Shown: positions 51,012 to 64,000 of the stretch, piece by piece
Layout of the letters: every line of letters starts with the position of its first letter
How positions within the stretch are numbered: the first letter of the stretch is position 1
Assembly: GCF_018734325.1 (NCBI RefSeq)
Contig: NZ_CP073754.1
Coordinates: forward strand, 1,674,001-1,738,000
Source: Methylomonas paludis
GTDB taxonomy: Bacteria > Pseudomonadota > Gammaproteobacteria > Methylococcales > Methylomonadaceae
DNA length: 64,000 nucleotides
Direction: 5' to 3'
Program-made: the position numbers and the translations under genes
Notes under the pieces: generated by a model
What the model saw: the letters and a program-made list of their open reading frames with translations, nothing else
Told to the model about the DNA's origin: nothing
The model's database searches: none

Positions 51012-52247
51012 TTAAAACCAGGGATGACGCGGTGGATTGATATTGTTTAAGGCATAATTACCGATAGCATAATATTTCCAACGCACCGGGTCATGCAGGG
51101 TGTGGGTACGGGCATTGCGCCAATGCCGATCCAGATTGTATTCACCCAGGGTGGAACGAGTACCGGCTAATTCAAACAATTTGCTGCCGGCCAATAGCGC
51201 GGTTTCGGTGCTGAATATTTTGGCTTCGGCTACAGCAATCGAGGCGGCAGCAACAGTATCTTCATTCTGGTTTTGCTGAGCCACATCTATGGCGGTGCCG
51301 GCCCGGCTTAACAGCGCTTCAGTGGCATGTACCTGAATTTGCAGATTACCGATATCTTTCAGCGTCAACGGGTCTTCATAACCGTGCTGTAAATCGGTAT
51401 CTATCCAGGGCCGGGTGTAATTGCGCACAAAATGCAGCGTATCTTTAAGCGCTGCACGAGCAATACCGGTATCAACTGCCGCCTGTATGATCTGAGCGAC
51501 CGGCCCCATCGTAGTGGGGTTATCAAAAGCCAAATGATGGGGCAAGACAAAATCGGCTGGTACAAACACATTTTCCAGAATGGTGGTACCGCTGGCGGTG
51601 GTACGTTGGCCAAAACTGGACCAGTCGTCGATGACGTTCAGGCCGGCTGAGCCTTTTTTGACAAAAGCCACCACAGTGTTGTCATTTTCATCCTTAGCCA
51701 CTACCGGCACCCAGTCGGCCAACAGCGCACCAGAGGAATAGAATTTTTTGCCTGACAGTAAATAACCGTCTTTAGTCGGGGTGAGCCTGGTTTTGACATC
51801 AGTGACCTGCCGGGTACCGATCTCAGAAAAGGCGTTGCCAAAGCGGATGCCTTTCAAGGCTAAATCAAAAAAATATCTTTTTTGAAATTCGCTGCCGTCC
51901 AGGCGAATAGCTTCTATCATATACAAATGATTTTGCGGGATCTGACCGATGCTGGGGTCAGCTTCGGAAATGATGCTGACCACTTCAGCTAACGTGGTGT
52001 TGGAAACAAAGGCACCACCATATTCTTTAGGTATGGTAATTCCCCACAAACCACTTTGCGAGTACAAATCAATTTCCTGGTAGGGCAGGCGGCGTTCCTG
52101 ATCGCGCAGGGCGGCTTCTTTGCCTATCTCTGCCGCAATGGTTTTGGCAATTTTAATGGCTTCCGCATCGGTTTTAATAATGTGTGCCGGTGCTCTTGGC
52201 GTAATCTCCACCTGACTGGCGGCAGCGGCGCTGGCTGATAATGACAT
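51012..52247 (-). CDS. sfnB: SfnB-family flavin-dependent sulfur-acquisition oxidoreductase
   Basis: A 411-residue acyl-CoA-dehydrogenase-fold flavoprotein of the SfnB/DszC branch, expected to use reduced FMN/FAD and O2 on an organosulfur compound rather than an acyl-CoA. Features: PYQEIDLYSQSGLWGITIPK then EYGG, the ACAD middle domain (SGKKFYSSGALLADWVPVVA) and the C-terminal helical domain with ELAGTRSTLGEYNLDRHWRN followed by ARTHTLHDPVRWK, the family's typical end. The ACAD catalytic glutamate is not evident, as expected. AGGAG precedes the ATG, and a sigma-54 promoter lies about 50 bases upstream. Two paralogues occur within 10 kb. Confidence 0.88.
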   Translation of the reverse strand: MSLSASAAAASQVEITPRAPAHIIKTDAEAIKIAKTIAAEIGKEAALRDQERRLPYQEIDLYSQSGLWGITIPKEYGGAFVSNTTLAEVVSIISEADPSIGQIPQNHLYMIEAIRLDGSEFQKRYFFDLALKGIRFGNAFSEIGTRQVTDVKTRLTPTKDGYLLSGKKFYSSGALLADWVPVVAKDENDNTVVAFVKKGSAGLNVIDDWSSFGQRTTASGTTILENVFVPADFVLPHHLAFDNPTTMGPVAQIIQAAVDTGIARAALKDTLHFVRNYTRPWIDTDLQHGYEDPLTLKDIGNLQIQVHATEALLSRAGTAIDVAQQNQNEDTVAAASIAVAEAKIFSTETALLAGSKLFELAGTRSTLGEYNLDRHWRNARTHTLHDPVRWKYYAIGNYALNNINPPRHPWF

Positions 52248-52295
52248 GATAGTCTCCTAAAAATGTATGGGATAAAGATAGCTTTTATACTGTTA

Positions 52296-52311
52296 CGCAT
52301 TGAACATGCCA
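52296..52311 (-). promoter_or_regulatory. Sigma-54 promoter of sfnB
   Basis: On the minus strand TGGCATG-TTCA-ATGC, with GG and GC at exactly 10-base spacing; one mismatch to TTGC at -12. It predicts a start site about 38 bases before the sfnB ATG. Confidence 0.75.
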
Positions 52312-52394
52312 TTTCGTAACAGCATGATTTTTATTGACTTGTCTAAATTTTGCTGCCTGACAATTGCTGAAGCAGCGCTATTTTGCTGATCGCT

Positions 52395-52444
52395 TGCTTA
52401 CTGCGCAGCAGACCAAACCACGGTAGTTGGGTGCTGACGCAGCA
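52395..52444 (-). promoter_or_regulatory. Candidate activator sites upstream of sfnB
   Basis: TGCTTACTGCGCAGCA (52395-52410) matches the cluster's TGCTGC-N4-GCAGCA element with two changes in one arm. GTGCTGACGCAGCA (ending 52444) is a weaker, one-arm match. The sites lie 85-145 bases upstream of the sigma-54 promoter, a usual enhancer distance. Confidence 0.5.
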
Positions 52445-52458
52445 AGCTTAGCCAAGCA

Positions 52459-53943
52459 CTAGAAATACACCTGACCTTGCAGCCGCACCCGGTTGTCGAT
52501 CAGAGATTGTCCCGCCCAGTCATCTCCGGAGATATGGCTGTAATCGGTCTGCAATTTAAAGTGATGGTCATAGAAATAATAGTTAAGACCAACTGAGCCT
52601 ATCGTCTGATTTTTATAGGGGCTGCCGTTTTGATGTTCAAACAACACCTGATTGGCGGTACCAGCCAGTTCCAGCCGTTTCGGTACCAGATAATAACCGG
52701 CTTGCCAGTACCAGCCATAGTTGTTGCTGGTGGCCTTGGCTGAATTGATGCTGTGCGGGTCGTGATCCTGACGGGCAAAAAATGCCGCTTCGGTATTGAA
52801 TAATTTATAGCGATAACCAATGTCGGCAGTACCGGTATAAGTATCCATACCCATCACAGTATTTTGCAGGCCGGAATTGGCGTCAACCGGGTTGTAACCA
52901 ATCGCACCGCCCAAGGATAATTGCGGCGTTTCTACGCTATCGGTGATGGTTTCCTGTACATAGGTGTAAGGATCGAGAATGTCATAAACTACCCGGCCTA
53001 TCCCGGCCAGCTTGGTACCGACATTTTGCTGACTTACCGAGTCCAGCGCTCTGACACTATTACCCACAGTCAGACTGGTATTCCATTTGCCGGATTTCCA
53101 GTTGAATTCCAGACCTGGTGTACGTTGCAAGCTGAACGCGTATTCGGGTTGTTGCAAGTCCATGAACAGATATTTACCGATATCGGTATAAAACTGTCTG
53201 GAGAATTGCGGCAAAATACGACCGGCTTTGATACCCAGATTACCCAGCTGATATTTACCCCACCAGTCTATGGTATCAACGCGGTTGGTATTGTTAAGCG
53301 TGCTGCTTTGATAGAAAAAGAAATAAGACAGGTTGGGATCAAAGGCAGTACCAGAGAAAAATAACCTGCCTAAGGCCAGATCAAAACCCTGGTTATCGCT
53401 GCCGGCATTTTTACTGGGCAGGTTTAAGGTATAACGCGATTGCACCAGACCGTTAATCGCCAGCGAGTAGCGGTTGTCATTGGTTCTTAACACAAAGCCG
53501 TTATCGTAAAAGCCGCCTAGTCTATGTCCGCTAGGTACTTTGGCGGTATCCGGATTTTCGATTTCCGGCTCTTCCTGCACGTTACGCTTTTTAGCGGTGG
53601 GTGTATCGATGGCTACGCCGTTACTGGCGGTCTTACCATTGCCGCTATTACCCGTCAGGCTGTTATCAGGCTGGTTGGTATTAGCAGCACGTAAAGCTTC
53701 CTTCGCTTCAATTTCCAACAGGCGCTCATTAGTAACTTTAATTTGCTGTTGGTATTCTTCCATTTGCTTGCGCAGTTTGCGGATTTCGCTATTGTCATCT
53801 TTGGCCAGCACTACACCCGGCGATAACAAATAACCCAGCATCAGCGAATAGCCAAGGCCTTTGCTGATGGTGGCGTAATAATCCCGGATAAAACTTTTGC
53901 GGGTGGCTGGTCGTAAATGTCGAGGTAATTTTAACGTGTTCAT
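52459..53943 (-). CDS. OprO/OprP-like outer-membrane porin
   Basis: A 494-residue porin. It has an unusually long N-terminal region (about 28 residues, including RHLRPATRKSFIRDYYATIS) before the hydrophobic signal core LGYSLMLGYLLSPGVVLA, then a coiled coil (IRKLRKQMEEYQQQIKVTNE), a low-complexity linker, and a phosphate-selective-porin-type barrel from about residue 145 (YDNGFVLRTNDNRYSLAING) to the final strand ending RLQGQVYF. OprP-type porins admit anions; here uptake of sulfonates or sulfate esters is suggested by context. A sigma-54 promoter lies about 45 bases upstream of the ATG. Confidence 0.8.
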   Translation of the reverse strand: MNTLKLPRHLRPATRKSFIRDYYATISKGLGYSLMLGYLLSPGVVLAKDDNSEIRKLRKQMEEYQQQIKVTNERLLEIEAKEALRAANTNQPDNSLTGNSGNGKTASNGVAIDTPTAKKRNVQEEPEIENPDTAKVPSGHRLGGFYDNGFVLRTNDNRYSLAINGLVQSRYTLNLPSKNAGSDNQGFDLALGRLFFSGTAFDPNLSYFFFYQSSTLNNTNRVDTIDWWGKYQLGNLGIKAGRILPQFSRQFYTDIGKYLFMDLQQPEYAFSLQRTPGLEFNWKSGKWNTSLTVGNSVRALDSVSQQNVGTKLAGIGRVVYDILDPYTYVQETITDSVETPQLSLGGAIGYNPVDANSGLQNTVMGMDTYTGTADIGYRYKLFNTEAAFFARQDHDPHSINSAKATSNNYGWYWQAGYYLVPKRLELAGTANQVLFEHQNGSPYKNQTIGSVGLNYYFYDHHFKLQTDYSHISGDDWAGQSLIDNRVRLQGQVYF

Positions 53944-53986
53944 TAATGCTTCCTTTTTTGATTTAGAGATAACCTGTCTCTATAAG

Positions 53987-54002
53987 GGCATTAAGTGTGC
54001 CA
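53987..54002 (-). promoter_or_regulatory. Sigma-54 promoter of the porin gene
   Basis: Minus strand TGGCACA-CTTA-ATGC, with GG-N10-GC spacing. The predicted start site is about 33 bases before the porin ATG. No full TGCTGC-N4-GCAGCA element is seen just upstream. Confidence 0.75.
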
Positions 54003-54144
54003 TCACAATATATATTGTTTTATTTCATATAGTTATATGTGTTTTTTACCTAAATTATTCAATCTGTATAAATATCTAAATGCTGTTTTTTCCTGCATTT
54101 GCTGAATTGCTGCCGCTAGATGGGCGCTGGTTAATAAAACCAGC

Positions 54145-54175
54145 GTAACCTCGATGCAGCAACGCGGAATCAAGG
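54145..54175. repeat. REP-like palindrome, family B
   Basis: GTAACCTCGATGCAGCAACG then CGGAATCAAGG, immediately downstream of ribBA. Confidence 0.65.
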
Positions 54176-54184
54176 CGACTATAT

Positions 54185-55390
54185 TTAGGCCAAGTTGAGC
54201 ATGTGTCCCAATTTCTCGGATTTTGTGCGTAAATACAGGATGTTTTCACTATTCGGCACCGGTTCCAGCGGCACCCGCTCGACAATTTTCAGACGGTAGC
54301 CGGCCAGTTCGGTAAATTTAGCCGGATTATTGCTCATCAACCGTAAGGTGGTGACACCTAGATCGGTGAGAATTTGGGCACCAACATCGTAGCTCCGCGA
54401 ATCAACCGGCAGACCGAGATCCAGATTGGCCTGTACCGTATCGCGGCCCTGATCCTGTAATTCATAGGCACGCAGCTTGTGGGCCAGACCTATGCCACGG
54501 CCTTCATGGCCACGCAGATACACCAGCACACCGCTGCCGGCTTGCTCGATTTTATTCAGCGCCATTTTTAACTGGTTACCGCAGTCGCAACGTAAGGAAT
54601 CCAGCACATCACCGGTTAAACATTCCGAATGCACCCGCACCAGCACGTTTTGCTGTCCGACGATTTTGCCTTTTACCAGCGCCAAATGTTCGGAGCCATC
54701 CAGTATTGAGCGGTAGACATGGGCGGTAAAAATGCCGGCCGAGGTGGGCAATCGGGCTTCGGACAGGTGTTCCACCAGTTGATCGTTACGGCGGCGATAA
54801 GCGATTAAATCGGCGATCTGGATAAAGGGTAACTGATGTTGTTCGGCAAATGCCCGCAAGGCTTCGCCACGGGTCATGGTGCCATCGTCATTGACGATTT
54901 CACACAGCACACCAGCCGGATATAAACCGGCCAGACGGGCTAAATCCCCGGCGGCTTCGGTATGACCGGGTCTGGCCAATACACCATGCTCTCTGGCGCG
55001 TAATGGGAAGACATGGCCGGGGCGGGCGAAATCAGCCGCCGTGGTATTCAGGTTGGCCAGAGCGCGGATGGTGGCGCTACGATCAGCTGCGGAAATACCA
55101 GTGCTGGTGCCTTTATTTAAATCCACGGACACGGTAAATGCAGTGCCGTGCGGGTCGGTGTTGCGAGCGACCATGGGTTCCAATCCCAATGCGTCTATAC
55201 GCGCAGCGGGTAGCGAAACGCAAACGACCCCGCTGCTGTAGCGCACCAGAAAAGCCATTTTTTCCGGGGTCATTTTTTCGGCGGCGATAATCAGGTCGCC
55301 TTCATTTTCACGTTGGGCGTCATCGGCTACGACGACGAAATCGCCATTACGGATGGCGAGGATGGCGGATTCTACTGAGTTGTTGGTCAT
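54185..55390 (-). CDS. ribBA: Bifunctional 3,4-dihydroxy-2-butanone 4-phosphate synthase / GTP cyclohydrolase II
   Basis: Supplies both precursors of riboflavin, hence FMN and FAD. The N-terminal DHBP synthase domain (residues about 1-200) has the acidic loop [29 protein letters not shown] and [12 protein letters not shown] followed by [12 protein letters not shown]. The C-terminal GTP cyclohydrolase II domain has [20 protein letters not shown] (zinc cysteines), [12 protein letters not shown] and [14 protein letters not shown]. Both domains look complete (401 residues). Its place inside an FMN-dependent sulfur cluster, with its own sigma-54 promoter 300 bases upstream, suggests a dedicated copy for flavin supply. 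Confidence 0.93.
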
Positions 55391-55684
55391 GGGGTAGGGT
55401 GTGGGTTGTGTAATTGTTGATTCTTGCGTTGTTGTTTCAGATGCTTCTTTTTGCCAGGGATATAGGATGTGCTGAACGAAGTGAAGCGCATCAGTCGTGA
55501 TTTAACTTAATCATTATTTAGAAGATTATTAATTTGGAAACGCTATCGCGAGGCCGGTTTAATGTCGGTATCCGCACCGACAGGCGCCCCCCTTCGGACT
55601 TTTCCCGGCCCAAGCTGCGGTGCTCGGCGCGGCATACGGGATTAACATCGGCCTGCGGCAGCTAGGAGTCGCTGTGCGACCTTT
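55391..55684. other. Long structured leader of ribBA
   Basis: Between the predicted sigma-54 start site (about 55684) and the ribBA ATG lie 294 bases. The GC-rich part holds pairing arms GGCCGG (55552-55557) with CCGGCC (55605-55610), enclosing a perfect 7-bp hairpin TGTCGGT/ACCGACA (55563-55569, 55576-55582), and AGCTGC/GCAGCT (55613-55618, 55658-55663). A family A REP lies at 55461-55498. It does not match the FMN riboswitch consensus. Confidence 0.45.
55461..55498 (+). repeat. REP-like repeat, family A
   Basis: TATAGGATGTGCTGAACGAA then GTGAAGCGCATCAGTCGT, within the leader of ribBA. Confidence 0.7.
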
Positions 55685-55693
55685 TTATGGATA

Positions 55694-55710
55694 TTGCAGG
55701 TAACATGCCA
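55694..55710 (-). promoter_or_regulatory. Sigma-54 promoter upstream of ribBA
   Basis: Minus strand TGGCATG-TTAC-CTGCA, with GG-N10-GC spacing and one mismatch at -12. It sits about 300 bases before the ribBA ATG, and two perfect activator-site candidates lie 55-115 bases further upstream. Confidence 0.7.
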
Positions 55711-55762
55711 TGTGTTAAGGCTTTGTTTAATATTAGGTAATATATTTGATGTGTTGCTTGAA

Positions 55763-55808
55763 TGCTGCACTCGCAGCAGCTGATAAGACAAATGCTGCTT
55801 CAGCAGCA
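55763..55808. promoter_or_regulatory. Two perfect TGCTGC-N4-GCAGCA sites
   Basis: TGCTGCACTCGCAGCA (55763-55778) and TGCTGCTTCAGCAGCA (55793-55808) are both exact inverted repeats with centres 30 bases apart (about three helical turns). They lie between sfnR and ribBA, upstream of the ribBA sigma-54 promoter. Confidence 0.65.
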
Positions 55809-55861
55809 TTTCAAGATGGCCCCCTTTAGTCAAAAAGGGAGCTGGGCAAACAGCGGAGTGC

Positions 55862-56992
55862 TTATCTGAGGGCGTTGATGGCTCCCATTTTGATGAGCCG
55901 GGCTCTGACGATATTGCGGCTGACACCCAATAGCTTGGCGGTTTGGGCGGCGTTATTATGGCAATAATTGTAAGCGGCGCGGATGATGCTTTCTTCCAGG
56001 TGATCGTACAGACCGCTTTGGCCGGCTTCGAATAACTGGTAAAGTGCGTCATTCAGACGGCTATTACCATCACTGCCGGAGCCTGTGCCGGGGTTTTCTC
56101 TGGGCTTTTGCAACTGGATGCTGGAAAGCTGCAGGTCTTCGCTGCGAACGATATTGTTTTTACAAATCAGCAGAGCGTGATGAATCACGTTTTCCAGTTC
56201 GCGGATATTGCCTGGCCAGGAATGTTTAATTAATTTGTTTCTGGCATCTTCATCCAGCCTGATTTCGTTATAGCCCAGGCGTCTGCGGTATTCCGAGACA
56301 AAATATTCGGCCAGCGGAATAATATCGCCGGGGCGGTTTCTGAGAGTGGGTAGTTCCAGATGGGCGACTCTGAGGCGATAAAACAAGTCTTCGCGAAAAT
56401 GACCGGCCAGCACCGCTTCTTCCAGGCGCACATTGGTGGCCGCCACCAGTCTAACGTTGATGGGGATCGGTTTTCTGGCGCCCAGTCTGACCACTTCGCG
56501 CTCTTGCAGAACCCGCAACAGTTTAACCTGTATGCTCAAAGGCAGATCGCCGATTTCATCCAGAAACAGCGTACCGGTATTGGCGGCTTCAAACCAGCCT
56601 ACCTTACTGGAAAAGGCACCGGTAAATGCGCCTTTTTCATGGCCGAATAATTCACTCTCCACCAGGCTTTCTGAAAAAGCCCCGCAGTTAACCGCCACAA
56701 ACGGTTTGTCCTTACGGTTGCTTAATTCGTGTACATAGCGGGCGATCAGCTCTTTACCGGTGCCGGTTTCTCCGATCACCAGCACATTGGCATCGCTGGG
56801 GGCGATCATACGGATGCGGTTGAGCAGGGCCACTGATTTTGGATCTTCAAAGACTTGGGCCGTGGCTCTAATCGAGGTCGTCAATTCATGAGGATTGGGC
56901 AGCGTCAGCAGATTGGCCGGTTTTTCTACTCTGGCTGGCTCGGCTTGCTGTCCAGGCGTGTAATCAAAAAAGTGATTGTTTACTTTATTCAT
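55862..56992 (-). CDS. sfnR: SfnR-like sigma-54-dependent activator
   Basis: A 376-residue enhancer-binding protein lacking a receiver domain. The central AAA+ domain has Walker A IGETGTGKELIARYVHELS, the sigma-54-contact loop ELFGHEKGAFTGAFSS, and Walker B GTLFLDEIGDLPLSIQVKLL. The C-terminal Fis-type helix-turn-helix is NNAAQTAKLLGVSRNIVRAR. I take the ATG at 56992, which overlaps the upstream gene's TGA as ATGA, over a longer frame from 57034. SfnR activates dimethylsulfone/sulfonate use in Pseudomonas. With only a short N-terminus, its activity is probably set by its own expression level rather than by ligand or phosphorylation (inference). Confidence 0.88.
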   Translation of the reverse strand: MNKVNNHFFDYTPGQQAEPARVEKPANLLTLPNPHELTTSIRATAQVFEDPKSVALLNRIRMIAPSDANVLVIGETGTGKELIARYVHELSNRKDKPFVAVNCGAFSESLVESELFGHEKGAFTGAFSSKVGWFEAANTGTLFLDEIGDLPLSIQVKLLRVLQEREVVRLGARKPIPINVRLVAATNVRLEEAVLAGHFREDLFYRLRVAHLELPTLRNRPGDIIPLAEYFVSEYRRRLGYNEIRLDEDARNKLIKHSWPGNIRELENVIHHALLICKNNIVRSEDLQLSSIQLQKPRENPGTGSGSDGNSRLNDALYQLFEAGQSGLYDHLEESIIRAAYNYCHNNAAQTAKLLGVSRNIVRARLIKMGAINALR

Positions 56993-58224
56993 GAATAAAA
57001 CGTCGGTTTTGGGTAAGAATTGTTCAATGCCCATTCGCCTAGCTCCTTTATTTTATAATCCAGCGGGTCATGTAAGGTATGTGTTCTCAAATTGCGCCAA
57101 TGGCGATCCATTCTTAAGCCGCCGTGGGTAGACCTTGAACCCATGACTTCAAACATTTTATTGGTAATATCCAGGCCGGTACGGGTAGCCAGCACTTTTG
57201 CCACACTGATAGCTACTGCCACATCGCCACGCTCGGCCTCAGTTAATGCCGTTTGTTTCTGCCAGGCCTGATCGAGTTTTTGCGCGGCAATATCGGCCAA
57301 GGCTCTGGCGCTTTCCAAGCCCACCCAGAACTCGCCGTAATGACTGAGCACATAAGGGTCGTGCTGGGCGCTCTCCAGATTGGAGGTATGCCAGGGCCGG
57401 GCTTCATATAAAGTATATTGCCGAGCATCCTGATAAGCGCCTTCGGCAATGCCCAGATAAATATTGGTCAGAATCAATTGGGCAACCAACGAGCGCAGAC
57501 AGGAAAACGGCGAACTTAAAGGCCCAGGATCGGCCAATATTTCATTCTGTTCCACGCGTACTTTCTCAAAATTGACGCTACCGCTATCGGTTTGGCGCTG
57601 ACCAATATTGTCCCAGTCCTGTATCACTGTCACGCCAGTTCTACCGGTGGGAATGGCGGCGATCAGCAGCTTGGCATCGGTTTTGGCTCGGGCCGAGACT
57701 ATCAGCATTTCCGAATCTATTGCACCGGAGCAAAAGCTTTTTTTGCCGGAAAATTCAAACCAACCCGGAAAGGATTTGGCGATAGAGCGTTCGTCCAACG
57801 GGTTTAGGGCATTACCCCAGAACCAGTTAAGCTGGGCGGTTTGTTCATACCAAGGTTCCCATTGTTCCGGTTTGGAGAACAGGCGTACGGTGGCCAGCAT
57901 CAGATGCTGAAAGCCGAATACGTGCGCAATTGAGCTGTCGGCTTTGGCTATCTCGCGAATAATCTGCATGGTCTGGTACCAGTCCGCGCCCAGACCGCCA
58001 TACTGTTTAGGGATAATCAAAGATAATAAGCCGCTTTGCCGAATAGCGTCACGCTCCTGTTTTGGGGTTCCACCCAAATAATCACGTTGAGCAGCGGTCT
58101 GGGCAAATTGCTCGGACAGGTATTTGGCAATTTCAAACGGATTTTCCGGCTCATCTTCCTGATTGATAGTGGTGTCTCGTGCCAGTGTTTGTATATTCAA
58201 GGCTGTTTCCAATAAGTTGTCCAC
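56989..58224 (-). CDS. Acyl-CoA-dehydrogenase-like flavin monooxygenase (SfnB/DszC type), copy 2
   Basis: A 411-residue ACAD-fold flavoprotein closely resembling the protein encoded at 59696-60898: both have AAQRD/AAERD followed by a x-GGTP-x-x-x-R motif near the N-terminus, FNF/WGNALNPLD in the middle (NWFWGNALNPLDERSIAKSF), WDNIGQRQTDSGSVNFEKV, and RMDRHWRNLRTHTLHDPLDY at the end. It probably oxidises an organosulfur compound using reduced flavin. The stop overlaps the sfnR start (ATGA). The annotated ATG at 58224 coincides with the predicted sigma-54 transcription start, so the real start may be TTG at 58200, which follows GGAAA. Confidence 0.82.
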   Translation of the reverse strand: MDNLLETALNIQTLARDTTINQEDEPENPFEIAKYLSEQFAQTAAQRDYLGGTPKQERDAIRQSGLLSLIIPKQYGGLGADWYQTMQIIREIAKADSSIAHVFGFQHLMLATVRLFSKPEQWEPWYEQTAQLNWFWGNALNPLDERSIAKSFPGWFEFSGKKSFCSGAIDSEMLIVSARAKTDAKLLIAAIPTGRTGVTVIQDWDNIGQRQTDSGSVNFEKVRVEQNEILADPGPLSSPFSCLRSLVAQLILTNIYLGIAEGAYQDARQYTLYEARPWHTSNLESAQHDPYVLSHYGEFWVGLESARALADIAAQKLDQAWQKQTALTEAERGDVAVAISVAKVLATRTGLDITNKMFEVMGSRSTHGGLRMDRHWRNLRTHTLHDPLDYKIKELGEWALNNSYPKPTFYS

Positions 58225-58233
58225 CTATATCAA

Positions 58234-58249
58234 AGCAATAATAGTGCCA
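58234..58249 (-). promoter_or_regulatory. Sigma-54 promoter of the monooxygenase-sfnR operon
   Basis: Minus strand TGGCACT-ATTA-TTGCT, a full match to the -24/-12 consensus with GG-N10-GC spacing. The predicted +1 is at about 58223. Confidence 0.8.
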
Positions 58250-58267
58250 GTTGTAGACATGTAGGTG

Positions 58268-58304
58268 TGCTGCTCGCACAGCAACAACCGCTGCTGACGC
58301 AGCA
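58268..58304. promoter_or_regulatory. Two activator-site candidates in the divergent region
   Basis: TGCTGCTCGCACAGCA (58268-58283, one mismatch) and CGCTGCTGACGCAGCA (58289-58304, one mismatch), centres 21 bases apart, near the minus-strand promoter. Confidence 0.55.
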
Positions 58305-58397
58305 ACAAAATCATAGCTTGTCGACAATAAAGTGGCGATTCAAAACCATCACACCTCAGTTTTGACCGCCACTCAAGATTTTAGGGATCAGCGAGTA

Positions 58398-58444
58398 TGC
58401 TGCTGTAGCAGCAGTGATCGTGCAGGGATGCTTATAGAGCAGCA
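58398..58444. promoter_or_regulatory. Two activator-site candidates upstream of ssuD
   Basis: TGCTGCTGTAGCAGCA (58398-58413, perfect) and TGCTTATAGAGCAGCA (58429-58444), centres 31 bases apart, ending 52 bases before the ssuD sigma-54 promoter. TGCTTA-N4-GCAGCA also occurs upstream of sfnB. Confidence 0.65.
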
Positions 58445-58495
58445 TACTGAATCATCAAGTCATGCTGGATCAGCTGTTTTGTCAAGAAAACTGAC

Positions 58496-58511
58496 TGGCA
58501 TGTTATTTGCG
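58496..58511 (+). promoter_or_regulatory. Sigma-54 promoter of the ssuD operon
   Basis: TGGCATG-TTAT-TTGCG, with GG-N10-GC spacing. The predicted start site is about 31 bases before the ssuD ATG. Confidence 0.8.
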
Positions 58512-58552
58512 CTAAGGAGAGGGAAGTTCTCTTTTTTGAAAAGGTATTCTAA

Positions 58553-59692
58553 ATGGAAATATTTTGGTTTTTACCCACACATGGGGATAGCCGCTACCTC
58601 GGCACCGAACTGGGCGTCAGGCCGGTAACCTATTCGTATCTGCGGCAAATTGCCCAGGCCGCCGACAATCTTGGCTTTAAAGGCGTGCTGGTACCATCGG
58701 GACGCGCCTGTGAAGATCCCTGGGTAATTGCGGCTGCGCTGATTAATCAGACCAAACAGCTTAAATTTCTGGTGGCATTAAGACCCAGCTTTACTTCGCC
58801 TACGGTTTCGGCGCGTATGGCATCAACATTGGATCGAGTATCCGGCGGGCGCTTATTGATTAATGTAGTGGCCGGCGGCGATCCGGCTGAACAGCAGGCT
58901 GATGGCAGTTTTTTAAGCCACGACCAGCGCTATGCTGAAGCCGGCGAGTTTTTAAACATCTGGAAACGGGTGCTGGCCGGGGAAGTGCTGGATTTTGACG
59001 GTGAGTATATCAAAGTCAAAGGCGCCAGCCTGCCGTCGGGCAGTCAGCAGCAACCGCATCCACCCTTGTTTCTGGGTGGGTCTTCGCAGGCAGCTATTCA
59101 ACTCAGCGCCGAACATATTGATGTGTATCTAAGCTGGGGCGAACCACCGGCTGCGGTGGCGGCAAAAATCGAGCAGGTGCGTGCCGCAGCCACCAAACTG
59201 GGTCGCAAGGTCAAATTCGGCATCCGGTTGCACGTTATCGTCCGGGAAACCAGTGCTGCTGCCTGGGCAGCGGCTGATGAACTGATTGCCCACGTCACCG
59301 ATGAAACCATTGCCGCTGCGCAGGCTGCCGTGGCTGGTTTTGAATCGGTAGGCCAGCAGAAAATGACCGAATTGCATGGCGGCAAACGCGATCATCTAGT
59401 GGTTGCGCCCAACTTGTGGGCCGGGGTAGGGCTGGTGCGAGGCGGGGCCGGTACGGCGCTGGTGGGCAATCCGCAGGAAGTCGCGGAGCGTATCAAGGAA
59501 TATGCGGCGCTGGGTATCGATTATTTTATTTTTTCCGGTTATCCACATCTGGAAGAATCTTACCGGGTGGCCGAGCTGCTGTTTCCCTTATTGCCGGTCG
59601 AGCTTGATTCTCAACTTGATACCGGTATTAAAACCAATCTAACCGGGCCATTTGGTGCCGCCCAACCAAGAACAGCTTCTCAAGGGAAATAA
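58553..59692 (+). CDS. ssuD: FMNH2-dependent alkanesulfonate monooxygenase SsuD
   Basis: A bacterial luciferase-type enzyme that cleaves alkanesulfonates to aldehyde and sulfite. The 379 residues match SsuD (about 380). It starts [19 protein letters not shown], followed by [20 protein letters not shown] (SsuD has the conserved cysteine here), [40 protein letters not shown] and [20 protein letters not shown]. The ATG is preceded by AAGG and the gene is first in a three-gene operon. No ssuE reductase or ssuACB transporter is in the window, so reduced FMN and transport must come from elsewhere. SfnG, which acts on dimethylsulfone, is a close relative and cannot be fully excluded. Confidence 0.92.
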
Positions 59693-59695
59693 ATA

Positions 59696-60898
59696 ATGAC
59701 TTTCGTTGGCGAAACACGCGGGCTTAGCCCAGGCCTAAGGCCACATTTACAGGAACAGGCCGAGCAATTAAGCCGTTATTTTTATGAAACCGCCGCCGAA
59801 CGCGATGTAATTGGCGGCACCCCGCTGGAGCAGCGTCAGGCTGTGCGGGACAGCGGCCTGCTTAAGCTGTTAATTCCGCTGGAATACGGCGGACACGGCA
59901 GTTCCTGGGCGGACATTTATCAGATTATCCGTACCTTTGCCAGAACCGACAGCTCGTTGGCGCATGTGTTTGCCTTTCAGTCGCTGATGCTGGCTTCCAT
60001 CCGCTTATACGGCACTGAACAGCAATGGCAAACCCTGTTTACAGAAACCGCCCAGCAAAATTGGTGGTGGGGTAATGCGTTAAATCCACTGGACAATCGC
60101 ACCCTGGCTACCCACGATGGCGAAAATTTAGTGTTCAACGGCTTCAAGAGCTTTTGTTCCGGGGCCATTGATTCGGATCGGCTGATCGTCTCGGCCATAG
60201 AAGCGGATACCCAGAAATTTATTGTTGCCGCCGTCCCCACCCAGCGTGCCGGTATTGATTTACGCGATGACTGGGACAATATGGGCCAGCGCCAAACCGA
60301 TAGCGGCAGCATAGAATTTAAAGACTTGCTGGTCTATCCAGACGAGTTGTTAATCAATCCCGGCCCATTGAGTTCGCCGTTCTCCAGCCTGCGTTCGGTG
60401 ATTGCTCAGCTGATATTTACCAATATCTATTTAGGCATTACCGAAGGTGCTTTACAAGAAGCGGTGAACTATACCCGCACCAATTCGCGGGTGTGGTCTG
60501 GGTCACTGGCTAAAAACATCCAGGAAGACCCATACACCCTGTTGCATTACGGCGAATTATGGGCCAGCGTCGATGCCGCCCGGCAACTGGCCGATCAGGC
60601 GGCACTGCGGCTGGATCAGGCCTGGCAAAAAGGCCTGGATTTAACAGCTGCCGAACGCGGTGCAGCGGCGATTGCGGTGTTTTCCGCCAAGGTCAATATC
60701 ACCAGAGCCGGTCTGGATGTCACCTCGCGGATATTTGAAGTGTCCGGGGCCAGAGCCACCACTGCCAAACTGCGCATGGATAGGTTCTGGCGCAATCTGC
60801 GCGTCTACACCCTGCATGACCCGGTGGATTACAAATTAAAAGATTTGGGCGATTGGGCGCTTAACGGCAATTATCCCGCGCACAGCTTTTATTCATAA
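59696..60898 (+). CDS. Acyl-CoA-dehydrogenase-like flavin monooxygenase (SfnB/DszC type), copy 3
   Basis: A 400-residue paralogue of the 56989-58224 product. Parallel motifs are RDVIGGTPLEQRQAVRDSGL, LIPLEYGGHGSSWADIYQII, NWWWGNALNPLDNRTLATHD, WDNMGQRQTDSGSIEFKDL and RMDRFWRNLRVYTLHDPVDY. It starts 3 bases after the ssuD stop, so the two are certainly cotranscribed and probably sequential or alternative oxygenases for organosulfur compounds. The divergently encoded paralogue suggests duplication with change of substrate range. Confidence 0.85.
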   Translation: MTFVGETRGLSPGLRPHLQEQAEQLSRYFYETAAERDVIGGTPLEQRQAVRDSGLLKLLIPLEYGGHGSSWADIYQIIRTFARTDSSLAHVFAFQSLMLASIRLYGTEQQWQTLFTETAQQNWWWGNALNPLDNRTLATHDGENLVFNGFKSFCSGAIDSDRLIVSAIEADTQKFIVAAVPTQRAGIDLRDDWDNMGQRQTDSGSIEFKDLLVYPDELLINPGPLSSPFSSLRSVIAQLIFTNIYLGITEGALQEAVNYTRTNSRVWSGSLAKNIQEDPYTLLHYGELWASVDAARQLADQAALRLDQAWQKGLDLTAAERGAAAIAVFSAKVNITRAGLDVTSRIFEVSGARATTAKLRMDRFWRNLRVYTLHDPVDYKLKDLGDWALNGNYPAHSFYS

Positions 60899-60916
60899 CA
60901 ACAATTAAGGAAGTTT

Positions 60917-61768
60917 ATGTCAAAAATTATCGATATGCGCAGTCGTCCGGCGTTTTTACACGACTTTTTCGGGGCCACCCCGGATAGCCCCGGCTATGAA
61001 ACCGCCAAATGGCTGAATCAGCGGGTGGGTTCGAAAAACATCGAACATTTTAAACGCTCTTACACACTGGGCGGGTTTCTGGCCGAAATTGAGCAATCCG
61101 GTATCGACAAAGCGGTGGTGGTAGGCCGGGAAACACCTAGCCTGACCATCAACAATGATGAAATAGCAGCACTGGTCAGTAAAAGCCCCAAGCTGGTCGG
61201 TCTGGGTTCGGTAGATATTCAAAGCCGGGGCGTGGAAAACGCGCTGGCGGAAATTGACCGGGCCATTAATCAGCTGGGTTTTAAGGCCATCAACATTGAA
61301 CCAGGCTTTGCTGAGCCCGCTTTGCAAGTGGATGATCCAGTGTTTTTTCCGGTCTATGAAGCCTGTATTGCCTTTGATGTGCCAGTGTGCCTGATGAGTG
61401 GCCCCACCACCCCGGATTTTGATTACGCCCATCCCAATGCTTTGGCCAGACTGGCCAGACGATATCCAGCACTGAATATAATCTGTTTCCACGGCTATTA
61501 CCCGTTTGTAAACGAAGTAATAGGCGCAGCACTACGCTACACCAATATTTATTTAGTACCGGATATGTATATCTTTCAGCCGGGTTCCAAGCTTTATGTA
61601 GAAGCAGCCAACAGCTTCCTGGCCGATCAGCTATTATTCGGCTCATCCTATCCGTTCCGGGAAATGAAACAAACTGTCGATGACTTTGCGGCACTGGGGT
61701 TTAAGGACAGTATACTGGATAAATTGTTTTATAAAACAGCGGAGCGGGTTTTGAAGGTTAATATTTGA
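60917..61768 (+). CDS. Amidohydrolase-2-like protein lacking the N-terminal HxH motif
   Basis: A 283-residue TIM-barrel protein of the amidohydrolase_2 (metal-dependent hydrolase) superfamily. The N-terminus IIDMRSRPAFLHDFF lacks the HxH metal pair that normally follows the first strand. Later features are present: VVGRETPSLTINNDEIAALV, GFKAINIEPGFAEPALQVDD, INIICFHGYYPFVNEVIGAA (histidine near 193) and LLFGSSYPFREMKQTVDDF. It is the third gene of the ssuD operon, 18 bases after the preceding stop. It may process the carbon skeleton left by desulfonation; activity is uncertain because metal ligands are missing. Confidence 0.75.
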   Translation: MSKIIDMRSRPAFLHDFFGATPDSPGYETAKWLNQRVGSKNIEHFKRSYTLGGFLAEIEQSGIDKAVVVGRETPSLTINNDEIAALVSKSPKLVGLGSVDIQSRGVENALAEIDRAINQLGFKAINIEPGFAEPALQVDDPVFFPVYEACIAFDVPVCLMSGPTTPDFDYAHPNALARLARRYPALNIICFHGYYPFVNEVIGAALRYTNIYLVPDMYIFQPGSKLYVEAANSFLADQLLFGSSYPFREMKQTVDDFAALGFKDSILDKLFYKTAERVLKVNI

Positions 61769-62362: not shown

Positions 62363-62734
62363 TTAAAAATCGAGTGTTAAAGACTTTAGTAATTCTGGTT
62401 GACGCTCGGCAATTTTGAACAATGTTTTTGCGGCTCCAGTCGGCTGTCTCCGGCCTTGTTCCCATTCTTGCAATGTACGGACAGAAACACCAAGCAACTT
62501 AGAAAACTGGCGCTGAGTTAATCCAGTATTGATTCTTGTGCTGGCTGCTACAGTCATTATTTCATCATTCTCTACTGTACCATCGGCTAATGTAACCAAT
62601 CGGCGAATTTTGCCATCCTCTTGGGGTAAATACTCAGTTTTTCTGCCCCAAACTCCTGCCTGCATCTGCCTAACAGATTCCAGAAGTTTTTCACCTAGTT
62701 CTTCACCGGTCATAGTGGTATTTGATTTAGACAT
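62363..62734 (-). CDS. HigA/NadS-type antitoxin with Xre helix-turn-helix
   Basis: A 123-residue DNA-binding protein. The helix-turn-helix is GLTQRQFSKLLGVSVRTLQE followed by WEQGRRQPTGAAKTLFKIAE, the MqsA/HigA-like C-terminal form with the WEQGRRxPxGxA motif. The N-terminal half (GEKLLESVRQMQAG) precedes it. It follows a RelE/HigB-type toxin gene by 28 bases in the toxin-first order typical of HigBA. It appears intact, in contrast to the toxin. Confidence 0.85.
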   Translation of the reverse strand: MSKSNTTMTGEELGEKLLESVRQMQAGVWGRKTEYLPQEDGKIRRLVTLADGTVENDEIMTVAASTRINTGLTQRQFSKLLGVSVRTLQEWEQGRRQPTGAAKTLFKIAERQPELLKSLTLDF

Positions 62735-62762
62735 TGCTAATAGTCTCCTTAATGGCTTTTAA

Positions 62763-63031
62763 TTAATGCCCTGAGATATTGCCTTGCACATTCTTTGCAT
62801 AAATCACCAGCAAGTGAATTTCGCCATGCGCCAGACGATTGTAATAGATCACTCTAACCTCACTACGTTTTCCAGTTCCTTCACGAGCCCACCTGATTTT
62901 TCGGCACTCCCCCCAGAACCCGGAACTACTGTACCCACTTCTGGATGCTCTATAAGCCAAGCGCAAAATTCTCCACGTTCGTCTTCTTTCCAAATAGACT
63001 TTGAATCATGTGTGAATAGTGGTGTTTTCAA
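62763..63031 (-). pseudogene. RelE/HigB-type toxin gene with frameshift
   Basis: MKTPLFTHDSKSIWKEDERG then FCAWLIEHPEVGTVVPGSGG is a normal N-terminal half. In a neighbouring frame follows RKIRWAREGTGKRSEVRVIY then YNRLAHGEIHLLVIYAKNVQ, the RKxRWxxxGxGKxxxVRVIYY block of this family. The break is at a G-run/CC at about 62908-62916, where the family pattern GG-V-R-K would need two fewer bases. The 3' end is also shorter than usual. The toxin is probably inactive unless this is a sequencing error. Confidence 0.78.
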
Positions 63032-63430
63032 TAATGGTGTACATCTGTAGGTATATTATACGTCAATGACGTATAATAACAGCACGCTCGCTGAAAATCT
63101 TGGAAGCGGAACGTAAGTGGAGCGAAGATTTTTAGTCCCCGATAGGCGTAGCGCCGGGCGGGTTTTCGAAGCGAAGCGGAGAAAACCTGCAAGGCATCGC
63201 GAAACGCCGTCAAGTCACTTGGAGCCGAAGTTCCGATCCCCTTGTTGGGTCGGAACGAGGTGAGGAGGACGAATCGGGGCCGCCGGAGGCATTAGCGGTC
63301 GCGTAATTTTTGCCGCTTGTTGGGGCTGGGATGCCCCTAAACAAGCTTTCGCAAAAATAGCGACTCACTGATTTGTTTAGTTTGCAAGACACATCTCACT
63401 TTAGTTGAGTTCCGCAATCTGTAGTCTATC
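63032..63430. other. GC-rich, hairpin-rich intergenic region
   Basis: No gene is supported. The region is crowded with short imperfect palindromes, for example GTTTTCGAAGCGAAGCGGAG then AAAAC (63162-63186) and GTTCCGATCCCCTTGTTGGG then TCGGAAC (63230-63256), with recurring GCGAAGCGG-type loops. Two 60-residue frames on the minus strand look like artefacts of this composition. It may be a cassette-like or REP-derived element lying between two TA loci. Confidence 0.45.
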
Positions 63431-63730
63431 TCAAACTGTTTCAGCATGAAGTTTGACACCCAAGGCCTTAATGACTTTCATAATTGTGTCAAATCTAGGT
63501 TTGGCGCCGGGAGACAAGGCTTTATAAAGGCTTTCGCGTCCCAGTCCTGATTCCTTGGCAATCAATGACATGCCTTTAGCTTTTGCAATATAGCCCAAAG
63601 CGCGCAGCAGCTCTTCGCTGTCACCATCATCCAGAACTTGGGACAAATATTCGCTGATAGCGGCATCGTTATCGAGTAGGCTGCTTATATCAAATTCCGG
63701 CAAGCTTGCCACACTAATTTTTTTGGTCAT
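63431..63730 (-). CDS. Addiction-module antidote protein (HTH, HigA-like)
   Basis: A 99-residue DNA-binding antitoxin: FDISSLLDNDAAISEYLSQV, LLRALGYIAKAKGMSLIAKE and SGLGRESLYKALSPGAKPRF, ending TIMKVIKALGVKLHAE. The helix-turn-helix with SGLGRESLYKAL is diagnostic of the putative addiction-module antidote family. The ATG at 63730 follows the toxin stop by one base; the longer frame from 63772 would overlap the toxin and has no better ribosome site. Confidence 0.9.
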   Translation of the reverse strand: MTKKISVASLPEFDISSLLDNDAAISEYLSQVLDDGDSEELLRALGYIAKAKGMSLIAKESGLGRESLYKALSPGAKPRFDTIMKVIKALGVKLHAETV

Positions 63731-63731
63731 T

Positions 63732-64000
63732 CTAATCCTCCAACGTATCTGCCAAACGCTTGGCCTTAGCAATATCGGCGGCTTGTGTAGCTTTATCGCC
63801 GCCGCCCAGCATCACAATCACCACATCGCCATGTTGTACATAATACATTCGCCAACCAGGCCCGAAATGCTCACGCATTTCAAAAACGCCATCCCCAACC
63901 GGCTTCACATCACCAAACTGGCCCTGTTGAGCACGGACAAGTCTACGTGCCAATCGGATGCGCGTCATGTTGTCTTTGATGCTAGACAACCATATATCAA
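63732..64000 (-). CDS. RelE/ParE-type addiction-module killer protein (cut by window edge)
   Basis: The C-terminal 89 or so residues of a HigB/Gp49-like toxin of about 95-100 residues: DIWLSSIKDNMTRIRLARRL, QGQFGDVKPVGDGVFEMREH, FGPGWRMYYVQHGDVVIVML, GGGDKATQAADIAKAKRLA. The G-D-x-K-P-V-G-x-G-V-x-E-x-R block and the basic YYVQ...LLGGGDK end are the family hallmarks. The frame is open to the window edge, so the first few residues are missing from this view. It is coupled to the antitoxin downstream (one-base gap). No lesion is visible. Confidence 0.88.
   Translation of the reverse strand, partial: DIWLSSIKDNMTRIRLARRLVRAQQGQFGDVKPVGDGVFEMREHFGPGWRMYYVQHGDVVIVMLGGGDKATQAADIAKAKRLADTLED

Follow-up and report, generated by a model that had tools for sequence, protein, structure and literature searches.

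The stretch described here, 64,000 nucleotides of the Methylomonas paludis genome (G000:C1:1674001-1738000, hereafter the window; genome size 3,673,651 bp), carries a cluster of organosulfur genes in which ribBA, encoding a bifunctional enzyme of riboflavin precursor synthesis, stands among genes for flavin-dependent monooxygenases. We propose, with a probability of roughly 0.75, that this cluster is an organosulfur-scavenging regulon governed by an SfnR-like activator together with sigma-54, and that it includes its own RibBA, which would boost the production of flavin mononucleotide (FMN) alongside the monooxygenases. The proposal draws on gene content, promoter-type boxes, palindromes, extra gene copies and conservation across families, all of which can be observed directly in the sequences. 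The host is a member of the methane-oxidising family Methylomonadaceae, to which Methylovulum psychrotolerans belongs as well.

The initial annotation had assigned a TGGCAY-type promoter to each of five transcription units. All five boxes were recovered, in intergenic DNA and each on the correct strand, before sfnB, the porin gene, ribBA, msuC1-sfnR and msuD-msuC2-amidohydrolase. The pattern TGGCAYN6TGC occurs six times in the window against 2.82 expected, but because five of 100 shuffled sequences also attain six, the count alone is weak. Five of the six matches are intergenic and lie on the sense strand, 10-305 nt ahead of the genes named above. For this placement a Poisson calculation gives roughly 4e-10, a post hoc figure since the pattern was derived from these very sites. 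The stricter form TGGCAYR-N5-TGC was found 50 times in the genome, compared with 11 times for a reversed control, and five of the 50 fall within the cluster (1726297-1738312). A loose scan permitting three mismatches was set aside as weak (96 boxes found against 134 expected).

The boxes are accompanied by a second element, the palindrome GCTGC-N4-GCAGC, with 21 exact sites in the 3.67 Mb genome. ribBA is preceded by two of these, the intergenic region shared by the divergent msuC1-sfnR and msuD units contains another two, and single copies stand ahead of a sixth unit beyond the window end (see below) and within msuD. Five of the 15 remaining exact sites were viewed with 2-kb context (L015-L019) and lie within or next to coding frames, no strict box being present in that context. 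If one mismatch is allowed, a palindrome is found no more than 300 bp upstream of five of the six cluster boxes and of none of 40 boxes elsewhere (Fisher's test, 4e-6), the latter being 40 of the 45 outside TGGCAYRN5TGC boxes, with four in L020/L065 and one other falling outside that count. Box and upstream palindrome are present together at five of the six units, the palindrome of sfnB having one mismatch and the porin unit lacking one.

To place the cluster among its counterparts, an MsuC alignment was scanned over named genomes and the best 80 matches were collected into 77 loci, a selection of top matches rather than a census. Where msuC and another cluster gene are divergently transcribed, at least two palindromes precede msuC in 29 of 32 loci; the mean is about 3 per 480 bp, whereas control windows from the same loci average 0.17-0.20. 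The three loci without them are all from Methylobacillus (L080, L081, L128). Among the 44 non-divergent loci without nearby rib genes, mostly from Pseudomonas, Xanthomonas and Acinetobacter, nine have a palindrome (mean 0.45 against 0.18), and the sole non-divergent locus with rib genes, L148, has none before the gene scored. The palindrome is plausibly the binding site of the SfnR-type activator.

The activator itself is encoded within the cluster, in agreement with the initial annotation: its AAA+ sigma-54 interaction domain, GAFTGA motif and DNA-binding C-terminus were all identified, with no recognised N-terminal sensor domain. Against curated models its best match was NorR (336, cut-off 476), and no SfnR model was among the 25 of 28 matches listed. 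The name SfnR is used because of the genomic context and the ~56-66% identity to the activator directly 3' of msuC in most Pseudomonas, Acinetobacter and Xanthomonas loci. Profiles also bore out the initial gene calls for sfnB, ribBA, ssuD and the monooxygenases, and refined them to MsuC-like proteins and a probable MsuD. The msuD/ssuD product passes the SsuD model, yet is nearer to structure 7jv3 (546 bits, labelled alkanesulfonate monooxygenase), which we take to be MsuD, than to 1nqk/1m41 (507 bits), presumably the SsuD of Escherichia coli; its substrate is probably methanesulfonate. MsuC1 and MsuC2 are both MsuC/DszC-like and both score under the DszC cut-off, the comparison with structures covering MsuC1. 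The listed GTG start of msuC1 at 58224 is only 10 nt from the box, so translation probably begins at TTG 58212 or 58200.

The sixth unit follows just past the window end, where a palindrome at 1738199 and a box at 1738298 precede genes for MsuE, SfnG, an AMP-binding-like protein and a Liv-type ABC transporter. MsuE starts 363 bp beyond the end (TIGR03566, 245 bits, cut-off 212), and SfnG is a clear match to its model (TIGR04021, 625 bits, cut-off 383). The initial annotation had described SsuE and SsuABC as absent from the window, and the reductase and the transporter as unknown; the latter statement is superseded by MsuE and the Liv-type transporter. No SsuA-family binding protein in the genome passes its cut-off (best 43 bits against 163.5). 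According to curated models and structure matches, the enzymes leading from dimethyl sulfone to sulfite, SfnG, MsuC, MsuD and MsuE, are all encoded together; the pathway is described for Pseudomonas in PMC8234197.

Both domains of the window RibBA are intact in profiles and alignments, the HSEC...RCDCG motif, whose cysteine residues presumably bind zinc, is kept, and activity is predicted for both halves. The genome contains two 3,4-dihydroxy-2-butanone 4-phosphate (DHBP) synthases and three matches to guanosine triphosphate (GTP) cyclohydrolase II. A second RibB is located at C1:3003068, and a stand-alone RibA with HSEC...RCDCG and GRGIGL kept at C1:3633290. In the housekeeping RibBA of the ribD-ribE-ribBA-ribH-nusB cluster, the DHBP synthase domain is intact by model score, and the HSEC...RCDCG motif and GRGIGL are lost. 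This protein shares the domain order of the window RibBA but lacks the zinc motif of GTP cyclohydrolase II that the latter has, and the RibB halves of the two fall in separate clades. Because a second RibB and an intact stand-alone RibA exist, the window ribBA is surplus for both steps. The possibility raised against the initial reading, that ribBA is the only copy and constitutively expressed, does not apply in this genome.

Much of the 305-nt ribBA leader is GC-rich dispersed repeat DNA, and its fold z-score is ordinary (-0.75). An FMN riboswitch in the leader was considered and rejected, as no Rfam family matched at its gathering score and the other matches were at chance level; the FMN riboswitch model RF00050 has no match in the window genome. 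A dispersed repeat of ~35 bp in the leader (55391-55690) is also present at ~50 places in the genome, some of them arrays with ~136-bp spacing (for example, C1:1073873-1074451).

Within the family, orthologues of sfnR (at least 74% identity) are present in six of 201 sampled genomes, the window genome included, and in four relatives orthologues of 83-85% identity stand beside the same cluster. In G133, G170 and G195 the gene order is unchanged over the stretches compared, with ribBA behind sfnR, and in the first two ribBA is preceded by two palindromes (no more than one mismatch) and a TGGCCTG-N5-TGC box. In Methylovulum psychrotolerans Sph1 (G115, L075) an 86% identical ribBA is found ~68 kb away, behind an acyl-CoA-dehydrogenase-like gene; this relocated operon is preceded by two palindromes with one mismatch each and by TGGCCTGATAACTGC, a TGGCCTG-N5-TGC box read by eye. 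G154 has an intact separate ribA behind sfnR, while its msuC1 and the ribB that follows the amidohydrolase gene are interrupted, apparently by insertion elements. G336 belongs to a different family of the order; its ribBA is located between sfnG and msuD and follows an msuC at a distance of 19 bp (aligned ends). SfnG was found in four of 369 sampled genomes of the class: G000 and G336 have a cluster rib gene, and G244 and G385 (L070, L071) have no rib gene in the 20 kb covered.

Association of rib genes with the cluster is not restricted to the order. They occur inside the cluster in 22 of the 77 loci, a count that leaves out L136, in which a ribBA lies 7 kb off. All 12 loci of Methylophilaceae are included (seven in which sfnR is followed by ribA and the amidohydrolase gene by ribB, and five with ribA only), as are all five of Aquitalea and all three of Chitinibacteraceae, both with ribB only, and two of three from Methylococcales, with fused ribBA (L073 and L074, whose contigs are also those of G170 and G133). 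A gap of 29-145 bp (aligned ends) separates each rib gene from the cluster gene ahead of it in the 20 betaproteobacterial loci, whereas the two Methylococcales ribBA genes lie 314 and 330 bp behind sfnR and have promoter elements of their own. Paludibacterium is represented by one locus, which stands on a short contig and has no rib gene, nor do the Pseudomonas, Burkholderia, Xanthomonas and Acinetobacter loci have one in the cluster, the distant ribBA of L136 apart. As a separate observation, Aquitalea aquatica (G587, L141) has four DHBP synthase copies, one of them behind an FMN riboswitch. The coupling of riboflavin and sulfur genes at the cluster is real, conserved and testable. The palindromes, the promoters of the relatives, the ribBA placed 83 bp from sfnR in G195 and the rib genes in the operons of other families lend support to the suggestion of the initial annotation that flavin precursor synthesis would be co-induced with the monooxygenases.

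Phylogenetic trees point to different histories of the two enzymes. In the RibB tree one branch separates 21 cluster RibB sequences from 21 others, nearly all of which come from the same genomes or close kin (the broken RibB of G154 was omitted); its support is moderate (93/89) and the grouping recurs in 94% of the 200 bootstrap trees. The nearest neighbours of the clade are two more RibB from Aquitalea. Cluster RibA sequences do not form one clade: the tree, from which degenerate RibA halves other than that of the window genome were omitted, requires five label changes, two of them forced by well-supported branches, no bootstrap tree manages with one, and the fused RibA sequences are separate. 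The cluster ribA and the stand-alone ribA of the Pseudomethylobacillus genome are sisters (100/100). Since RibB forms one clade and RibA does not, RibB probably travelled with the organosulfur cluster, and RibA was probably recruited to it more than once. Such recurrent gain of one activity at one position would be the strongest evidence that the link between rib genes and cluster is functional.

The proposed mechanism is as follows. Sulfur starvation would be the trigger, SfnR would bind the palindromes and sigma-54 would drive ribBA. Dimethyl sulfone would be converted to methanesulfinate by SfnG, then to methanesulfonate by MsuC and to sulfite and formaldehyde by MsuD, with the reduced FMN (FMNH2) for the pathway coming from MsuE. 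RibBA would make both riboflavin precursors, from GTP and ribulose 5-phosphate, and, with the regulon switched on, would lift the flux to riboflavin and FMN above the output of the housekeeping RibB and the stand-alone RibA. FMN, freely exchanged among several two-component monooxygenases, would in this way be supplied together with the enzymes, flavin presumably being limiting otherwise. In a broader form of this idea, for which we would give slightly less than even odds, a dedicated RibB lineage would be a 'flavin booster' that spread through gamma- and betaproteobacteria along with organosulfur clusters under SfnR control, RibA being added several times independently; sulfur-triggered FMN would then be made outside the usual feedback, chiefly in methylotrophs in which no FMN riboswitch was found.

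Several observations weigh against a sulfur-controlled RibBA. The porin box has no palindrome within 300 bp even with two mismatches permitted, and the palindrome motif was first spotted by eye in the window and only afterwards tested. The ribBA boxes of the relatives read TGGCC rather than TGGCA and would escape the strict pattern applied in counting boxes over the genome. In G195, where 83 bp separate sfnR from ribBA, the latter has neither box nor palindrome to itself and would need read-through from sfnR. The pathway evidently works without cluster rib genes, as 55 of the 77 loci have none. Methylovorus and Methylobacillus with ribA only, and Aquitalea and Chitinibacteraceae with ribB only, are less clean cases than a cluster with both entry enzymes. 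In all four Methylobacillus genomes (L080, L081, L128, L139) no GTP cyclohydrolase II other than the cluster ribA keeps an intact motif, so this gene is presumably expressed on sulfate too, and three of these four loci lack a palindrome before msuC; taken together, this means that location in the cluster need not imply sulfur-only expression.

Among the alternatives, the best placed is compatible with the proposed regulon, though we consider it unlikely as the explanation: cluster rib genes would substitute for missing feedback, because without an FMN riboswitch the housekeeping rib genes could not be derepressed, hence a sulfur-controlled extra copy. The lack of a riboswitch match in the window genome fits this view, as does the finding that a riboswitch scored over the cut-off in five of 26 genomes with cluster rib genes (none of the 18 methylotrophs) against 18 of 25 without (Fisher's test, 2e-4). 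However, the genomes are not independent and represent few clades, five of the eight Aquitalea/Chitinibacteraceae carriers do have a riboswitch, seven of the 25 non-carriers have none over the cut-off (one of them has two weak matches), and the sample consisted of 50 of the 77 loci, hand-picked for variety and searched with stricter filters. The Methylovulum genome, with its relocated ribBA and no riboswitch found, was counted in neither group, and L137 was left out. Given the few clades, the hand-picked non-carriers and the split among carriers (5/8 against 0/18), the correlation is a lead only.

It appears less probable that RibBA is a general riboflavin gene merely sited in the cluster, without any role specific to sulfur and with its transcription due to an unrelated promoter or to read-through. 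The presumably permanent need for the cluster ribA in Methylobacillus would agree with this, as would the dispersed repeats between the ribBA box and the gene and a weak sigma-70-like match in the leader (9/12; region total 7 against 5.2 in shuffles). Set against it are the box and two exact palindromes before ribBA, with similar elements in the relatives, a RibB clade common to several families and tied to the cluster, the finding that RibA of more than one lineage occupies this place, and the separate RibB and RibA genes that the window genome keeps. That the extra riboflavin serves secretion or flavin-based electron transfer instead of monooxygenases is very improbable: a porin adjoining ribBA (in the window, L051, L052 and L054) would fit export, and PMC8399692 lists Methylophilus rib genes under electron transfer, with sfnG under a separate heading, but genes for FMNH2-dependent enzymes and their reductase surround the rib genes, no porin match was found in loci with ribA and/or ribB outside Methylococcales, and G115 retains the porin with no ribBA beside it.

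The sulfur-controlled RibBA regulon proposed here resembles the sfn/msu regulon of Pseudomonas in SfnG, MsuC, MsuD, MsuE and the type of activator, as well as, in part of the loci, the operon for a Liv-type transporter. It differs in that the Pseudomonas msuC loci compared have no cluster rib gene, the ribBA of L136 being 7 kb away, and mostly no palindrome before msuC, and in that msuC-sfnR in the window has a sigma-54-type box itself. The nearest precedent in principle is RibR of Bacillus subtilis, reportedly placed in a sulfur transcription unit by Pedrolli et al. in 2015: a flavin gene lies within an organosulfur transcription unit, as in the window. A review (PMC7693651) describes RibR as a flavokinase in a 12-gene sulfur unit which is induced by organic sulfur sources and raises flavin supply. 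RibR interferes with FMN riboswitches, whereas in the window the entry enzymes RibBA would be under a sigma-54-type promoter and no FMN riboswitch was found in the genome; the window gene product not being a flavokinase, the likeness would be one of working principle only. In luminous Photobacterium, riboflavin genes are linked to the lux genes, beside a luciferase-family monooxygenase that uses FMNH2, but there the output is light, the regulator is another one and the set of rib genes is different. In the literature covered, mostly papers outside subscription, rib genes inside an sfn/msu cluster were not found reported, and PMC13352529, as far as covered, contains neither 'riboflavin' nor 'ribA'.

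If the proposed regulon is correct, the regulon would be the level at which cofactor supply is matched to the demand of two-component flavin monooxygenases, for which reduced FMN is a diffusible co-substrate, and the cluster would be a proteobacterial counterpart to the RibR link of Bacillus. It would also offer a function for the surplus RibB, RibA and RibBA copies in methylotroph genomes, and it proposes a concrete enhancer motif for SfnR-type activators, testable in many species.

Table 1. Features of the organosulfur cluster in the window (coordinates are positions in the window).
Feature	Position	Strand	Evidence
sfnB, SfnB-family sulfur acquisition oxidoreductase	51012..52247	-	TIGR04022 636 bits, cut-off 431
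Sigma-54-type box TGGCATGTTCAATGC, sfnB	52297..52311	-	pattern match; 1-mismatch palindrome 125 bp upstream
Palindrome, 1 mismatch, upstream of sfnB	52430..52443	.	motif match
Porin-like outer membrane protein	52459..53943	-	no Pfam match; weak ExtI-porin match, 23 bits, cut-off 150
Sigma-54-type box TGGCACACTTAATGC, porin	53988..54002	-	pattern match
ribBA, bifunctional DHBP synthase / GTP cyclohydrolase II	54185..55390	-	PRK09311 634 bits, cut-off 569
ribBA leader with dispersed genomic repeats	55391..55695	-	60 own-genome matches to the leader query, itself included
Sigma-54-type box TGGCATGTTACCTGC, ribBA	55696..55710	-	pattern match; 305 nt from ribBA
Palindrome, exact, centre 60 bp upstream of ribBA box	55764..55777	.	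motif match
Palindrome, exact, centre 90 bp upstream of ribBA box	55794..55807	.	motif match
SfnR-like sigma-54 activator	55862..57034	-	AAA+, GAFTGA; HTH_8 20.5 bits, just under cut-off 22
msuC1, methanesulfinate monooxygenase-like	56989..58224	-	nearest structure 6u76 (methanesulfinate monooxygenase), 594 bits
Sigma-54-type box TGGCACTATTATTGC, msuC1-sfnR	58235..58249	-	pattern match
Palindrome, 1 mismatch, msuC1-sfnR upstream region	58269..58282	.	motif match
Palindrome, exact, between divergent units	58290..58303	.	motif match
Palindrome, exact, centre 90 bp upstream of msuD box	58399..58412	.	motif match
Sigma-54-type box TGGCATGTTATTTGC, msuD	58496..58510	+	pattern match
msuD/ssuD, FMNH2-dependent alkanesulfonate monooxygenase	58553..59692	+	TIGR03565 577 bits, cut-off 518
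msuC2, second MsuC/DszC-like monooxygenase	59696..60898	+	profile match; kept in relatives
Amidohydro_2 protein	60917..61768	+	PF04909; cluster-conserved

Proteins 67-73% identical to the porin stand beside the cluster in L051, L052, L053 and L054. The Amidohydro_2 protein (60917-61768) shares 72-81% identity with its counterparts in methylotrophs and 53-55% with those in Pseudomonas. Between the two parts of the regulon, at 62363-63989, the window contains small helix-turn-helix and HigB/HigA-like frames of toxin-antitoxin type, as judged by eye.

A second SfnR-like activator (57% identical) is encoded elsewhere in the same genome (L065, G000:C1:2824000-2843900), with sigma-54-type boxes and no exact palindrome in 20 kb, and probably governs a separate regulon. 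No cluster genes adjoin those paralogous activators (at most 64% identity) that were annotated, namely that of L065 and those of G055, G103, G115, G029, G053, G050 and G024 (L058-L064).

The AMP-binding-like protein of 380 aa encoded between sfnG and the Liv-type transporter genes (L014:3098-4240, G000:C1:1740097-1741239) has only weak family scores (~30 bits or less) and recurs in sfnG operons of several families at ~42-62% identity. The Liv-type binding protein (L014:7567-8904) has no NCBIfam match and is, within the cluster, one of the best conserved proteins: identity from genus to genus is mostly 77-89%, with lower values in Paracidovorax and one Methylobacillus locus (67-68%) and in L070 (48%); such high conservation suggests a fixed ligand.

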